Part shown: positions 3,872 to 10,561 of the stretch, piece by piece | Layout of the letters: every line of letters starts with the position of its first letter | Position numbering within the stretch: position 1 is the stretch's first letter | DNA from: Anaerolineae bacterium | Lineage (GTDB): Bacteria; Chloroflexota; Anaerolineae; Aggregatilineales; UBA2796 | Direction: 5' to 3' | Assembly (NCBI GenBank): GCA_019637555.1 | Contig: JAHBVK010000022.1 | Span: 1-64,000 of the forward strand | Length of the DNA: 64,000 nt | The notes under the pieces: model-generated | The model's input: the letters and a program-made list of their open reading frames with translations, nothing else | Told to the model about the DNA's origin: nothing | The model's database searches: none | Position numbers and translations under genes: made by a program

Positions 3872-5170
3872 ATGCGGATCAAGATTGAAGGTCGTCAACC
3901 ACTACGAGGTACCTATCGAGTAGCGGGCAGCAGCAATAGTGCTATGTCGCTAATTGCGGCTTCGCTGTTGACGGATGCGCCCGTCACGCTGACCAATGTT
4001 CCTGATACCGTCAGCGTCGGCGTAATGCTGGAAGTGGGTGCGTCGCTCGGCTTGAAGATAGATGAAGGCGCGGACGGACGCGGTGGCGATGTGAAGCTGG
4101 ATGCCTCCAAAGTGTTCGGGCGGGCACTAGAGCGTGAGCATACCGATGCGCTCAGCGGCACCATCTTGTTCCTCGCTCCGATCTTGGCGCGCCGACGCCA
4201 TGCCCGCATGACTATTGACTATGCCATCAGCCGCATTCACCCCCATCTGACGGCGCTTCGCGATCTCGGCGTCAACGTCAAAGTTGATGATGGCGTAATC
4301 GATCTGGATGCTCAGCCTTGGGAAAATGCGGAAATAGTGCTGACACAAACCAGCGTGACGGCGACGGCGCTGGTTTGTATGCTGGCGGCGGCACTGGGCA
4401 AGGAAACCACCATCATCAATGCCGCCTCTGAGCCGCACATTGTCGAGCTTCAGCAGTTTTTAAGCTGGCTTGGTGTCACTGTTCGCGGCATGGGATCAAA
4501 TCTGATCACGGTAGAAGGCATGGGCGGTAGAGAAAATGCGCTCAAACCGCAGTCCAAAACACCGATCCCGATTTCGCCGGATTATGTAGAAGCTGCAAGC
4601 GTAGCGGCGATGGCGGCTTTGACAGGTGGTAGATTAACGATTGAAGGTGTGCGTCGCCGCGACCTCCGTTTGATCGCTAAAGTTTATGAGCGTCTCGGAT
4701 TACACATCAGCCTTGATGACGATGCGTTGGTAGTACCCAAGCATGAACGCTTCGAGATTTCCAGCCGCGAGGAAGATGTCGATGTTTCGATAGAGTCGTC
4801 GCCATGGCCCGGCTTCCCCTCCGATTTGATCCCGCTGACGACGGTGATCGCTACGCAAGCGCGCGGCACGGTGCTGATCCATGAGAAGCTGTACAGCAAT
4901 CGACTGCTGCTGGTAGATCGCCTGAATGCCATGAACGCGCAGATCATCCATTGCGATCCGCACCGCGCAATCGTCATCGGTTCGACGCCGCTTCAAGGCA
5001 TTTACATCGACAATCCCGATGTGCGCACCGGACTGGCGATGCTGACGGCGGCGCTGTGTGCAGAAGGCGAAACCACTATCGACGCAGCAGAGACGTTTGA
5101 TCGCTATTTCGCGCATGTGCCTGATAAGCTGACCGCACTAGGAGCGAAGATCAAACGGAGCGAAGCATGA
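3872..5170 (+). CDS. MurA-family enolpyruvyltransferase paralogue, active site degenerate
   Basis: The 432-residue chain aligns end to end with MurA, which transfers enolpyruvate from PEP to UDP-GlcNAc. Shared features include the two-lobe repeat, EPHIVELQQFL, FPSD with Asp318 at the general-base position (E. coli Asp305), and DVRTG with Arg385. Several key positions differ. GSSN replaces GAKN (Ser21 for Lys22). The segment LSGTILFLAP lacks the arginine equivalent to Arg91. The flexible loop, normally GGCTIGARP with Cys115 and Arg120, reads MTIDYAISRIHPHL and has no cysteine. The fold is secure, but normal MurA catalysis is doubtful. It may be a paralogue with another substrate or a non-catalytic partner. 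It heads a run of four tightly spaced or overlapping genes; the next start overlaps its stop by 4 bases. Confidence 0.85.
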   Translation: MRIKIEGRQPLRGTYRVAGSSNSAMSLIAASLLTDAPVTLTNVPDTVSVGVMLEVGASLGLKIDEGADGRGGDVKLDASKVFGRALEREHTDALSGTILFLAPILARRRHARMTIDYAISRIHPHLTALRDLGVNVKVDDGVIDLDAQPWENAEIVLTQTSVTATALVCMLAAALGKETTIINAASEPHIVELQQFLSWLGVTVRGMGSNLITVEGMGGRENALKPQSKTPIPISPDYVEAASVAAMAALTGGRLTIEGVRRRDLRLIAKVYERLGLHISLDDDALVVPKHERFEISSREEDVDVSIESSPWPGFPSDLIPLTTVIATQARGTVLIHEKLYSNRLLLVDRLNAMNAQIIHCDPHRAIVIGSTPLQGIYIDNPDVRTGLAMLTAALCAEGETTIDAAETFDRYFAHVPDKLTALGAKIKRSEA

Positions 5171-5943
5171 CCACGACGATCAGCGATCTTGGTAAGGTGA
5201 AGATCTGTAGCGAGATTAGCGGCTCCGAAGAAGCGACAACAACCATATTGCTGCTGCACGGCTGGGGCGTCGGACTGAAGGGAATGCAGGGCGTCGCGCA
5301 GGGACTCGTATCGCGCGGCTATCGCGTGCACAACCTCGATCTGCCCGGTTTCGGTGAGAGCGATCCTCCACCGCAAGGAGAGGCATGGAGTGTAGGTGAC
5401 TACGCTGACTGCGTGGCGACCTATTTGCACCAGCAGCGACTCAGCCGCGTCAGCGTGATCGGGCATTCCTTCGGCGGTAGGATCGCCATCGTGTTAGGCG
5501 CGAAGTATGCACATTACATTGAGCGCCTCGTCCTCACCGATAGCGCGGGTGTGCTGCCACCAAAGTCGATGCGTGACCAGTTGGTGGGCATCAGCAAGCA
5601 GTTATTCAAACTGCCGGGGTTGAATGCCCTCGAAAAACAAGCGAAGGAATGGGCAAAGCAGCAGTTGGGTTCTGAAGATTACAAAAATGCTGGCATCTTA
5701 GAGCCAACATTCCGCAAGGTGATTGCAGAAGACTTGCTGCCACTCGCCCCTGCCATCAACGCACCAACACTATTGATCTGGGGCGATGCCGATCAGGATA
5801 CGCCGCTGTGGCAGGCGAAAGAGCTGGAAAAAGCGATCCCCGATGCCGGTTTAGTAGTGTTTAACGGCGCTGGTCATTACGCCTATCTGGAACGGTTGCC
5901 TGATTTTCTAAGAATTGTGGATACCTTCTTCAAGGGGTCATGA
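5167..5943 (+). CDS. Alpha/beta-fold hydrolase
   Basis: This is a 258-residue single-domain alpha/beta hydrolase. The oxyanion strand reads LLLHGWGVG and the nucleophile elbow GHSFGG contains Ser101. WGDADQD supplies the acid (Asp209 most likely) and GAGHYAYLE supplies His237, so the triad is complete. A helical cap covers about 130-195. There is no signal peptide, so it is cytoplasmic. The ATG overlaps the preceding stop (ATGA), and the next gene starts directly after this stop, so translation is probably coupled. Sitting between two Mur-family genes it may act on a cell-wall precursor or ester, but this is only inferred from context. Confidence 0.9.
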   Translation: MTTTISDLGKVKICSEISGSEEATTTILLLHGWGVGLKGMQGVAQGLVSRGYRVHNLDLPGFGESDPPPQGEAWSVGDYADCVATYLHQQRLSRVSVIGHSFGGRIAIVLGAKYAHYIERLVLTDSAGVLPPKSMRDQLVGISKQLFKLPGLNALEKQAKEWAKQQLGSEDYKNAGILEPTFRKVIAEDLLPLAPAINAPTLLIWGDADQDTPLWQAKELEKAIPDAGLVVFNGAGHYAYLERLPDFLRIVDTFFKGS

Positions 5944-7584
5944 ATGTCCGCATCGGATTCTTTGCTGCTGCTCTTAGCAATTGCCAGCGCCCTGATCTGG
6001 CTTATCTGTACTTGTCTACATGTCTATCATTTGATCCGCTTCTTCCAGATCGAGGAATACAAGAGCAACCGCTTTCTGGCGGTATTGTGGCGACTGCATC
6101 CTGAACGACGCTTTATCCTGATCGTTCTTGCCGTTGTCATCCTGCTGCTGTTATTGCTTATTCCACTCTCAACACAAACAAATGAGTCTACCTTTTCGCC
6201 GCTGCCGTTAATTATTAGCGTTATCGCGGCGATCTTGATGCTAACGTTGCGTCCGCGCGACATGGATGTGAAGCGCCCGTTCAATCCTACACATCGCGCC
6301 CGCCGACTGCTAATCGTGGCGCTGGCGCTTCCGGTTCTACTGACCATCATTGCCTTGATCCCGTTTCCGATCATCATCTTCTTTGTGCATTTGGCAGGTG
6401 CATTGATTCTGCTGTTTGCCCCTCTGTATCTACCTCTCGCTAACTTGATCCTCTTTCCTTACGAGGAAGCGGTGCGGCGCTATTACTTGCGCCTAGCACA
6501 GCGGAATTTGGAGCGCAGTGGTGCAACGGTGATCGCGCTGACAGGCAGTTACGGCAAGACTAGTACCAAGCACTACCTGCAACACATCCTCAGTGGCAAA
6601 TTCAACACACTGATGACACCTAAAAGTTACAACACGCTACTCGGTATCTCCCGCGTGATCAATGAGATCATGGCGGGGGACATGCAGTACGACTATTTCC
6701 TCGTCGAAGCTGGTGCTTATATCCCCGGCGAAATCGCCCGTATTTGCAAGCTGGTCAATCCGCAGATCAGCATCGTGGTTGCGGTCGGACCGATGCACCT
6801 TGAACGCTTCGGTAGCCTCGAAAATGTAGTCAAAGCGAAGTACGAGATCATCGAAGCACTGCCACAGGATGGCGTTGGCGTTTTCAACGCGGATGATCCT
6901 AACGTCTTAAGCATGGCGAAACGCGGCTACCCGCAGACTCGTCTGCTGATCACGCAGCAGAATGCTGATGGTGCGCGATTGAGCGCCTCGAACGTGCAGA
7001 TGACCGCCGAAGGCATGAACTTCACCGTCCGCGATAACGCCACCAATGAATCGCGCGATTTCAGTATCCCACTGTACGGAGAACACAATGTCACTAATGT
7101 GCTGCTGGCGATAGCAGTGGCGCGGCAGTTGGGTATGACCTTTAACGAGATCGCGCCGCAGCTTGTCTCCCTGCGTCCAGCAGAACATCGGTTGGTGCGT
7201 ACCATTCTGCCCAATGGCATCATCCTGATCGATGACGCTTATAGCGCTAATCCCGTCGGCACACAGATGGCGTTGCGGGCATTAGCAGCACAGGGCAGCA
7301 CCAATCGCGTTGTCGTATCTTCAGGTATGTTCGAACTGGGCGCACTACATGAGTCGGAAAACCACAAACTCGGAGAACGAATCGCCGCGGTAGCCACTGA
7401 CGTGATCTTGATCGGAAGTGCGCAGACAATACCGGTCAAAGACGGTCTCCTCAGCGCAAGTTTTCCAACGGATCACTTGCACGTAGTTGATAACCTTAAC
7501 GATGCCATTGCGATTTACCAGCAGATACTGCATCCCGGCGATACGCTGCTGCTGCTCACGGATTTACCAGATACCTATGCCTAG
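5944..7584 (+). CDS. Membrane-anchored Mur ligase family protein (MurF-like)
   Basis: The 546-residue protein has an unusual N-terminal membrane domain of about 170 residues, with hydrophobic segments near 3-28, 56-75, 87-103, 121-145 and 146-170. A full Mur ligase follows. The ATP loop is TGSYGKTST (200-208), then a TPKSYNT substrate motif, EAGAYIPGEI, a central domain with VGPMHLERFGS and FNADDP, and the C-terminal domain with LPNGIILIDDAYSANP, as in MurF. Mur ligases join an amino acid or peptide to a carboxylate using ATP. MurF itself is soluble and adds D-Ala-D-Ala, so the membrane domain points to a lipid-linked substrate or envelope site. The start abuts the hydrolase stop, and the last 8 bases overlap the GNAT gene. 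Confidence 0.87.
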   Translation: MSASDSLLLLLAIASALIWLICTCLHVYHLIRFFQIEEYKSNRFLAVLWRLHPERRFILIVLAVVILLLLLLIPLSTQTNESTFSPLPLIISVIAAILMLTLRPRDMDVKRPFNPTHRARRLLIVALALPVLLTIIALIPFPIIIFFVHLAGALILLFAPLYLPLANLILFPYEEAVRRYYLRLAQRNLERSGATVIALTGSYGKTSTKHYLQHILSGKFNTLMTPKSYNTLLGISRVINEIMAGDMQYDYFLVEAGAYIPGEIARICKLVNPQISIVVAVGPMHLERFGSLENVVKAKYEIIEALPQDGVGVFNADDPNVLSMAKRGYPQTRLLITQQNADGARLSASNVQMTAEGMNFTVRDNATNESRDFSIPLYGEHNVTNVLLAIAVARQLGMTFNEIAPQLVSLRPAEHRLVRTILPNGIILIDDAYSANPVGTQMALRALAAQGSTNRVVVSSGMFELGALHESENHKLGERIAAVATDVILIGSAQTIPVKDGLLSASFPTDHLHVVDNLNDAIAIYQQILHPGDTLLLLTDLPDTYA

Positions 7585-8170
7585 TTATTTCTTCCCACCA
7601 CAACGATTGGAAACACCAGAGTTCACCCTGCGGATATTTGAACAGGGCGATGGCAAGCTGCTAGCGGAAGCAGTACGCAGTTCCTATGATCATCTTCACG
7701 AGTTCATTTCGTGGGCGACTCCCGACTACAGCGATGATCGTGGTGAAGCGGATGCTCGCCGTTTTCTGGGGAAGTATCTGCTGAACGAGGATTTCGTGCT
7801 GGCGATCACGCCACCTGATAACAGCCGGATACTGGGCACGACGGGCTATCGACTGTTCGGCTATCCGTGGGACAATCTTGGGGTAGAGATCAGCATGTGG
7901 TTGTGCGGTGATGTCGCGGGTAAAGGGTTGGGCACCCGTGTACTCAGGGAAATGCTGCGTTGGGGCTTCACCGACTGGCCATGGGTACGCATCATGTGGC
8001 TGTGCGAGTCACAAAATCTTGCCAGCGCCAGAGTAGCGGCGAAGGCAGGAATGCATTTGGAGGGTAAATTCCGCAACTACACCTTCACAGCTAGTCATCA
8101 CGCTGATGCACTTCAATTCGCTTTAGTGCGCGACGAATTTGAGCCAGTAAAGCTGGAAGGCAAGCCATAA
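7577..8170 (+). CDS. GNAT acetyltransferase (RimJ/RimL type)
   Basis: This is a 197-residue GNAT protein. It opens with RLETPEFTLRIFEQGDGKLL, has the conserved strand ILGTTGYRLF, and then EISMWLCGDVAGKGLGTRVL, whose GKGLGT is the acetyl-CoA pyrophosphate loop. It ends with the SARVAAKAGMHLEGKFRN block typical of RimJ/RimL-type N-acetyltransferases. The ATG at 7577 was chosen because the family alignment begins there and it overlaps the Mur ligase stop by 8 bases. An upstream in-frame ATG at 7487 would add a Cys-rich, unfamily-like stretch inside the ligase gene. The acceptor is unknown. Position suggests it acts in the same pathway as the Mur ligase. Confidence 0.88.
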   Translation: MPSYFFPPQRLETPEFTLRIFEQGDGKLLAEAVRSSYDHLHEFISWATPDYSDDRGEADARRFLGKYLLNEDFVLAITPPDNSRILGTTGYRLFGYPWDNLGVEISMWLCGDVAGKGLGTRVLREMLRWGFTDWPWVRIMWLCESQNLASARVAAKAGMHLEGKFRNYTFTASHHADALQFALVRDEFEPVKLEGKP

Positions 8171-9044: not shown

Positions 9045-9091
9045 AGAATCACTATGAGCACCCAGCATTGTTATCTCACGGAGGGCGCAGG

Positions 9092-9790
9092 ATGATCCTT
9101 TGGTTAGCATCCTATCCTCGTTCAGGGAACACCTTCTTCCGAACATTACTTAAACACGTCTACGACATCAACTCGCTCACCATATACGATCAACTTCCAC
9201 AGACAACATGGACTGCCGCTCCAGAATATTTCACCATGCATCCACACAAGATTCCTACTTTCGAGGACATGGTGGCAGCGGATGAGTGGTATGTCATGAA
9301 AACCCATGATCTGCCAAAAGAAGATCATCCTGCGATTTATATAGTGCGGGATGGGCGCGATGCCCTTATCTCACACGCCCATTTTGTGCTGGAATATGAC
9401 TGGAAGCTGCCTCTCGAAGAACGCCAGGCTCGCTATTATGATACGCTCCGAATGTTGATCGAAACGGACGTCTCCTTTGGTGGTTGGGGTAAAAATGTTC
9501 TGGCGTGGACATTACGACAAACACCAACTATTGTGGTGAAATTTGAACAGCTAATCATTAACCCTTTTGAAACGCTTGCTGCTGCTCTCACAGAGATTGG
9601 CTATCAACCTCCAGAAGCGCGCTCATCTGATACACCTCTAAACTTTGAACATCTGCACAAGCTGAACCCGCAGTTCTTTCGCAAGGGTCGAGTCGGCGCA
9701 TGGCGAGAAGAGATGCCTACTGATCTGCAGGAGTTGTTCTGGCAGCGGCATGGTGCCGTGATGGATAAAATGACTTATAGTCGTGATTAA
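9092..9790 (+). CDS. Sulfotransferase domain protein, tandem copy 1
   Basis: This 232-residue protein opens with ILWLASYPRSGNTFF, the 5'-phosphosulfate loop of PAPS-dependent sulfotransferases. VRDGRDALISHAHFVL follows, carrying the 3'-phosphate-binding Arg and Ser. A C-terminal RKGRVGAWREEM block matches the RKGxxGdW nucleotide motif. It would move sulfate from PAPS to an unknown acceptor. The ATG at 9092 has GGAGGG six bases upstream and begins at the conserved motif, so it beats the earlier in-frame ATG at 9068. The neighbouring gene is a close paralogue. The family is sure, the acceptor unknown. Confidence 0.9.
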   Translation: MILWLASYPRSGNTFFRTLLKHVYDINSLTIYDQLPQTTWTAAPEYFTMHPHKIPTFEDMVAADEWYVMKTHDLPKEDHPAIYIVRDGRDALISHAHFVLEYDWKLPLEERQARYYDTLRMLIETDVSFGGWGKNVLAWTLRQTPTIVVKFEQLIINPFETLAAALTEIGYQPPEARSSDTPLNFEHLHKLNPQFFRKGRVGAWREEMPTDLQELFWQRHGAVMDKMTYSRD

Positions 9791-9859
9791 TTGGCTTGCT
9801 CGTTGCCCTTGCGTAGGGAACTACCGAATGAACTGCAATCAACAATCGGAAGGTGTCTT

Positions 9860-10561
9860 GTGATTCTATGGTTGGCGTCCTATCCTCGTTCAGGCAATAC
9901 CTTCTTCCGAGCTGTACTCAAACACGTCTATGACATTCCTACAGAGACCATCTATGACCTTGATCAGATGGAGATGGCGACATGGCAAAGGATGAAGAAG
10001 GTTGTAGATTTCCAGCCGGAAAACACAACACCACTGGCAGAACTAATCGCCTCCAAGCAGGTTCATATCGTTAAAACACACGACATGCCGAAAGAAGATC
10101 ATCCGGCTGTGTATCTAGTGCGCGATGGTCGAGATGCTCTGGTATCACACGCTCACTATGTTCTTCAGTATGACTGGAAACTGCCAGCAGAAGAGCGTCC
10201 AGCACGTTTCTACGAAGCGCTACGGATGCTGGTAGAAACCGATGTCTCATTCGGCGGTTGGAGCGGCAACGTGCTGGCATGGTTGGCACGCACTACGCCT
10301 ACCGCCGTACTGAAGTTCGAGGATCTGATCCGGTATCCATTGGAGTGTGTTGAGCAAGCGCTTAACGAAGTGGACTATCATCCTCCGCAGCGCCACGCGG
10401 ATCGACCGCCAACTTTCGAGGAATTGCGCGAAGCTGAACCACAGTTCTTCCGCAAAGGGCGTGTCGGCGCGTGGCGGGATGAAATGCCAAACGATCTTCA
10501 CGACCTATTCTGGCAGCGTCACGCTGAAGCAATGGATCGGATGGGTTACAGTCGAGATTAA
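9860..10561 (+). CDS. Sulfotransferase domain protein, tandem copy 2
   Basis: This is a 233-residue paralogue of the preceding gene. The same opening motif (ILWLASYPRSGNTFFR), VRDGRDALVSHAH, ETDVSFGGW, PQFFRKGRVGAWR and final YSRD are present, so a tandem duplication is clear. The region between about 25 and 75 has diverged in sequence and length. In this class the early segment often shapes the acceptor site, so the two copies may sulfate different substrates. The start is GTG at 9860, with GGAAGG six bases upstream. An ATG inside the intergenic stretch was not used because the paralogue begins at the same motif. Confidence 0.9.
   Translation: MILWLASYPRSGNTFFRAVLKHVYDIPTETIYDLDQMEMATWQRMKKVVDFQPENTTPLAELIASKQVHIVKTHDMPKEDHPAVYLVRDGRDALVSHAHYVLQYDWKLPAEERPARFYEALRMLVETDVSFGGWSGNVLAWLARTTPTAVLKFEDLIRYPLECVEQALNEVDYHPPQRHADRPPTFEELREAEPQFFRKGRVGAWRDEMPNDLHDLFWQRHAEAMDRMGYSRD

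Follow-up and report, generated by a model that had tools for sequence, protein, structure and literature searches.

A putative membrane-anchored form of MurF, encoded with a degenerate MurA and an alpha/beta hydrolase in an Anaerolineae genome, that probably serves ordinary peptidoglycan synthesis

MurF completes the cell-wall building block by attaching its last two amino acids and, to our knowledge, it is regarded as soluble and universal, and as a drug target. In crystal structures, the pyrophosphate of the UDP-substrate is found at the boundary between the N-terminal and middle domains (PMC6113224). MurT lacks the N-terminal domain, and the MurT/GatD complex amidates lipid I and lipid II and no soluble precursor (PMC6085368); the authors of the MurT/GatD structure argued that, with lipid II as substrate, a domain for UDP binding would collide with the membrane (PMC6113224). 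A further variant, MurF2, is encoded beside vanHAX in glycopeptide producers (PMC4790382). Our searches of the open-access literature for a membrane MurF, for MurF paralogues, for MurF in Chloroflexota and for fusions of MurF with alanine racemase (MurF-Alr) in Chloroflexi returned no relevant account, and a description in a subscription journal is possible; within the open literature searched, the membrane protein described below is undescribed and would be a new form of MurF.

The window that we analyzed is a stretch of 64,000 nucleotides (positions 1 to 64,000 of contig JAHBVK010000022.1, assembly GCA_019637555.1) from an Anaerolineae bacterium of the order Aggregatilineales. It contains four consecutive genes on the + strand: a catalytically degenerate MurA paralogue of 432 aa with the EPSP_synthase fold (3872..5170), an alpha/beta hydrolase of 258 aa, hereafter ABH (5167..5943), a Mur ligase of the MurF clade of 546 aa with a predicted membrane anchor, hereafter TM-MurF (5944..7584), and a GNAT acetyltransferase (7577..8170). 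The Pfam and NCBIfam assignments are EPSP_synthase/MurA, Abhydrolase, Mur_ligase_M+C (best family MurF, 222 bits) and Acetyltransf_3, respectively. A sequence-only reading of the window had reported overlaps of 4, 0 and 8 bases in this set, and the ORF coordinates bear it out: the degenerate MurA and ABH genes overlap by 4 bases (ATGA), the ATG of TM-MurF comes right after the ABH stop, and TM-MurF and GNAT overlap by 8 bases. In 30 of 40 loci of the same order, the first three genes stand side by side, the 4-base overlap between the degenerate MurA and ABH recurring in 16 of them, and ABH adjoins TM-MurF in 34; the arrangement is therefore not due to chance. The linkage is strong across the order, yet it fails in some members of the family to which the window belongs: in G001, a member of the same genus, the pair of degenerate MurA and ABH lies on a different contig from the ligase, and in G002 and G006 the degenerate MurA lies by itself. 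Thus conservation of the gene order holds for the core across the order, while some scattering is seen among the nearest relatives. The GNAT gene was rejected as a component of the system and is a local addition outside the conserved core: among the 40 relatives' loci it follows the ligase gene only in two family members, G003 and G004. Downstream of the cluster, at 9068-10561 (+), lies a tandem duplicate of two adjacent, similar sulfotransferase-like ORFs with the motif SYPRSGNTFFR.

The most distinctive feature of TM-MurF is its N-terminal part. Residues 1-194 (5944..6525, +) form a membrane domain that takes the place of the UDP-binding domain and is predicted to cross the membrane five times, as judged from hydropathy and from conservation over 119 sequences. 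The hydropathy profile shows five peaks ahead of Walker A, and the same count was obtained for 93 of the 119 homologues, with four peaks in 22. In the AlphaFold2 model (mean pLDDT 87.5), helices span residues 3-36, 52-77, 87-102, 117-137 and 144-192, entering the ligase core at 195. No Pfam family matched the membrane domain above cut-off, a Foldseek search found no match for this domain alone and returned Mur ligase domains, and Pfam gave no match in TM-MurF to the Mur N-terminal UDP-MurNAc-binding domain; the match to the MurF profile begins at position 61 of 418. The membrane domain that the earlier reading had singled out as unusual on a Mur ligase is thus a real feature, with its five spans ahead of Walker A and the UDP-binding domain replaced. 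Six of its residues (Q35, Y39, T116, R118, R121 and P172) are invariant in the 119 sequences and, given five spans, the loops that carry invariant residues (about 32-43 and about 110-121) are placed on the side of the membrane that faces the catalytic domains.

Behind this domain, no catalytic position of the Mur ligases has been lost. Walker A (TGSYGKTST, residues 200-208) is encoded at 6541..6567 (+), and the stretch from H285 to K299, which holds the positions of the Mg-binding histidine and the carbamylated lysine as placed by conservation, at 6796..6840 (+). The catalytic set K205, E255, H285, K299, N385, R416 and D431 is present, together with a DDAYSANP motif; among the 119 TM-MurF sequences H285 is conserved in 100% and K299 in 92%. 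The canonical KGSR end of MurF is replaced by a C-terminal motif ENDLPD[TN][YF], here LTDLPDTYA (7555..7581, +), so that the donor or the acceptor of TM-MurF could differ from that of MurF.

A maximum-likelihood tree of the middle and C-terminal domains places 17 TM-MurF sequences from five phyla in a single clade (support 100/99), sister to a clade of 14 canonical MurF sequences (support 99/96), and the two together stand apart from MurC, MurD and MurE (support 100/99). MurF structures also rank first when the AlphaFold2 model of TM-MurF is searched with Foldseek. The NCBIfam score of 222-223 bits (TIGR01143) is below the curated MurF cut-off of 288.6, as are the scores of some true MurF-Alr proteins. 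On these comparisons of sequence and predicted fold, TM-MurF is a membrane-embedded sister form of MurF, and its predicted function, which is well supported, is to attach D-Ala-D-Ala to the stem peptide at the membrane: TM-MurF would use ATP to join D-Ala-D-Ala, made by the D-Ala-D-Ala ligase Ddl, to the muropeptide stem.

The gene neighborhoods of TM-MurF outside the window point in the same direction. A scan of named genomes gave upward of 580 related places, other Mur ligases possibly among them; the top 80 span Chloroflexota, Poribacteria, Bacillota, Bacteroidota and Planctomycetota. Clustering of the neighbors brings out a core operon that the window by itself does not reveal, ABH–TM-MurF–Ddl: in 79 named loci from five phyla, some of them cut by contig ends, ABH lies no more than two genes upstream in 69 and Ddl no more than two genes downstream in 60. 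Ddl is thus the usual fourth gene elsewhere, non-adjacent in the window genome, and GNAT is not conserved. The omega-loop tyrosine of the D-Ala-D-Ala type is present in all 74 Ddl sequences readable by pattern, with 20 further Ddl sequences not matching the pattern. The clearest arrangement is that of the Poribacteria chromosome OX638316.1, which reads ftsI-murE-ABH-TM-murF-ddl-mraY-murD-ftsW-murG when named by NCBIfam matches: TM-murF sits exactly in the murF slot of the dcw cluster, and there is no other MurF. Of 251 Chloroflexota genomes sampled, about a tenth encode TM-MurF, in scattered families. Two other observations were made in these loci. In Sporosalibacterium, Sedimentibacter and relatives (L118, L120, L121, L128 and L138), the ABH–TM-MurF–Ddl operon has large ORFs on its flanks that recur from locus to locus and fall into clusters of about 430, 670 and 700 aa. 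In Aquibacillus kalidii, the murF slot between murE and mraY is occupied by a 306-aa MurF remnant (L213:5551-6580, -) that resembles the UDP-binding part, without Walker A, and TM-MurF is found elsewhere, beside ABH and Ddl.

We searched for canonical MurF with a MurF model at an E value of 1e-3. Twelve genomes of the order, 91-100% complete, encode TM-MurF and the other Mur ligases with no canonical MurF at this threshold, and the same model found none in the sampled Poribacteria and in the sampled Bacillota, among them Dethiosulfatibacter, Pseudalkalibacillus, Marinococcus and Caldanaerobacter, all of which have TM-MurF. In the three of these four that were checked, the dcw cluster reads murE-mraY-murD, with no murF. 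Families of the order without TM-MurF (f3, f6 and f7) mostly retain a standalone MurF, and this complementary distribution suggests that TM-MurF and canonical MurF replace each other.

The window genome itself (G000; 94% complete, 116 contigs) is less simple. It encodes MurC, MurD, MurE, an 891-aa MurF-Alr fusion, a cyanophycin-synthetase-like protein, FolC, a normal MurA and EPSP synthase, along with MraY and many transpeptidases; by its gene content, the organism should be able to make peptidoglycan. No Ddl turned up in the assembly (best match 41 bits), and because all 19 other genomes tested carry it, its absence is probably an assembly gap. The true MurA (L009, G000:C54:20816-22042) has Asp at position 115, as do nine Chloroflexota MurA sequences read outside the order; Asp at this position goes with fosfomycin insensitivity.

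The presence of a second MurF-like gene raises the question of which one does the work. In the MurF half of the fusion (L003, G000:C25:46218-47513), the position of the Mg-binding histidine has changed to Tyr and that of the carbamylated lysine to His. The other ten MurF-Alr proteins read in the window's family (G001-G010) have all lost the lysine and retain the histidine only in G003 and G004, and the five from genus g5 have lost the Walker A lysine too. In contrast, both Mg-site residues are still present in most MurF-Alr proteins of family f8 and in all three from f4 that were read. Those two histidines aside, TM-MurF is the only MurF in the window's family with the histidine, and in the window genome it is the only one with the complete set of catalytic residues. 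Because neither Mg-binding residue is left in MurF-Alr, it is TM-MurF that appears to do the work of MurF in this genome, and the MurF half of the fusion is, judged from its residues, probably dead. The histidine loss is not proof of inactivity, because MurT also lacks the Mg-binding histidine and yet works (PMC6085368). Nor is the residue rule absolute: the position equivalent to K299 is Gln in the TM-MurF of some close relatives (L063, L068 and L069, genera g2 and g5), where no other intact MurF was seen. By gene count, then, TM-MurF is not the sole MurF of the window genome; in effect it probably is, given the loss of both Mg-binding residues in the fusion. Taken together, we consider it quite likely that the cluster carries the working MurF of the genome in membrane-anchored form, serving ordinary peptidoglycan synthesis, with the degenerate MurA and ABH as partners.

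The sequence-only reading had proposed something different, a dedicated pathway, apart from normal peptidoglycan synthesis, in which an amide bond is built or edited on a membrane-linked precursor. The separate MurF-Alr fusion and normal MurA of the genome, the altered end motif of the ligase and the dead MurA paralogue next to it speak for such a pathway. We reject it nonetheless and regard it as very improbable: TM-MurF is an enzyme of the MurF clade, its partner is a Ddl with the omega-loop tyrosine, it occupies the murF slot of the Poribacteria dcw cluster, it is the sole MurF in many near-complete genomes, and the MurF half of the fusion has decayed. One element of that proposal survives, in that formation of an amide bond at the membrane is the most likely chemistry.

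If TM-MurF adds D-Ala-D-Ala, its acceptor needs to be considered. The membrane domain occupies just the position of the UDP-binding domain that it replaces and has invariant polar residues; this, together with the MurT precedent and the placement of the invariant loops on the catalytic side, argues for a lipid-linked tripeptide. From the domain loss and the analogy we infer that the acceptor is probably the tripeptide of lipid I or lipid II, not UDP-MurNAc-tripeptide, and we put the case for it at about evenly balanced. Where TM-MurF is the only MurF, MraY would then transfer MurNAc-tripeptide, and lipid I or II would receive D-Ala-D-Ala afterward, so that the last cytoplasmic step would run in the opposite order to that of the textbooks; this consequence is tentative, its chance falling a little short of even. 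The main rival is that TM-MurF still uses soluble UDP-MurNAc-tripeptide and that the membrane domain serves to dock it by MraY for direct transfer of the pentapeptide. All of the support for a MurF function fits docking equally well, and UDP-pentapeptide is the normal substrate of MraY. However, the whole UDP-binding domain is gone, its replacement has invariant polar residues over five phyla, beyond the needs of an anchor, and the closest precedent without that domain, MurT, uses lipid-linked precursors only (PMC6085368). We consider docking possible but doubtful.

The hydrolase is a recurring partner of the ligase. ABH has a GHSFGG (GxSxG) motif and an intact Ser-Asp-His triad (S101, D209 and H237), which is conserved in all 101 homologues, from five phyla; its nearest named families are generic esterases. 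Within the module, ABH would act as a serine hydrolase, and a plausible task for it is to edit or recycle the stem peptide on which TM-MurF works. An alternative reading makes the pair a repair or recycling module besides bulk synthesis, in which ABH trims the stem (by ester or amide hydrolysis) and TM-MurF re-extends lipid-linked tripeptides. The full triad and the place of ABH beside TM-MurF in five phyla are consistent with such a module, but genomes whose sole MurF is TM-MurF need it for bulk synthesis, and the families nearest to ABH point to a generic esterase. On balance this reading is unlikely, and we retain bulk synthesis as the preferred role of TM-MurF.

The first gene of the cluster encodes a protein of a different kind. 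By alignment, S21-N22 (3932..3937, +) corresponds to the catalytic K22-N23 of E. coli MurA, and the loop at about residues 113-121 (4208..4234, +), which ends in DYAISR, is shortened, with C/D115 and R120 of MurA missing. In all, the window protein has K22 changed to S, a 4-residue deletion across the C115 loop, R120 changed to S and D123 changed to H, while the other MurA of the genome has K22, D115 and R120. An alignment of 30 relatives, one of which is a contig-edge fragment without the catalytic part, shows the same class of losses: K22 is S, P or T, R120 is mostly S or N, and R397 is often gone. The degenerate state of this MurA, flagged as unusual in the earlier reading, is therefore real. 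The equivalents of N23, D305, R331, D369 and R371 are kept, and the AlphaFold2 model superposes on MurA with a TM-score of about 0.89 (Foldseek E value 7e-43), as expected for the EPT fold. The Ka/Ks ratio between the window and G001 is 0.094 for this gene vs 0.099 for the true MurA; we therefore reject a decaying pseudogene and conclude from these sequence comparisons that it is a maintained protein, most likely a pseudoenzyme.

Such a protein, unable to carry out the MurA reaction, would be kept as a binding, scaffold or regulatory partner. An enolpyruvyl transferase can have another substrate, as NikO does, so we also considered that the degenerate MurA is still active, with a changed mechanism or substrate. 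The retained substrate-side residues and purifying selection as strong as that on MurA are compatible with activity, but K22, the C115 loop, R120 and often R397 are lost together, which takes away the PEP contacts known from MurA structures, and the fold matches place the protein with MurA, well ahead of NikO. Retained activity is thus improbable, and a pseudoenzyme is the better description. Its range is narrow: in the phylum-wide sample no protein outside the order scored alike, the nine best read being true MurA with K22/D115/R120, and TM-MurF loci in other phyla contain no such gene. The degenerate MurA was accordingly rejected as a general partner of TM-MurF; it is found only in the window's order.

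If this picture is correct, a membrane form stands in for MurF in lineages of Bacillota, Poribacteria and Chloroflexota, genomes taken to be without murF do have one, and many bacteria may assemble the precursor in a different order. Inhibitors of MurF built on the UDP site would miss organisms that rely on TM-MurF. Within the window's order, a strongly conserved dead MurA beside TM-MurF suggests that control may be exerted somewhere between the step that opens stem assembly and the one that closes it.

It is instructive to compare these proteins with the systems already described. The degenerate MurA shares the whole fold and several substrate-side residues with the enolpyruvyl transferases MurA and NikO, and differs from them in lacking K22, the C115 loop and R120. 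TM-MurF shares with MurF (TIGR01143; PDB 4QF5 and 4CVM) the middle and C-terminal domains, the catalytic residues, a DDxxNxNP-type motif, the partnership with Ddl and the dcw position (seen for TM-MurF in Poribacteria). In contrast to MurF, it has a five-span membrane domain for the N-terminal UDP-binding domain and ENDLPD[TN][YF] for KGSR, and it forms a separate, fully supported clade; its own score is 223 bits against the curated MurF cut-off of 288.6. The MurF-Alr fusion (PRK11930 type) has a MurF-like half and occurs in the same cell but, unlike TM-MurF, it is soluble and is fused to alanine racemase, and its representatives in the window's family lack the catalytic lysine and in many cases the histidine as well. 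MurF2 of glycopeptide producers, considered here from its published description, is likewise a second MurF adjoining a Ddl-type ligase; the partner ligase of TM-MurF has the D-Ala-D-Ala omega-loop tyrosine. MurT is, like TM-MurF, a Mur ligase without the UDP-binding domain, and it works on a lipid-linked precursor, as we propose for TM-MurF. However, MurT has no membrane domain, requires GatD and amidates D-Glu, whereas the recurring neighbors of TM-MurF among the annotated neighbor clusters are ABH and Ddl: TM-MurF pairs with these two and is closer in sequence to MurF.
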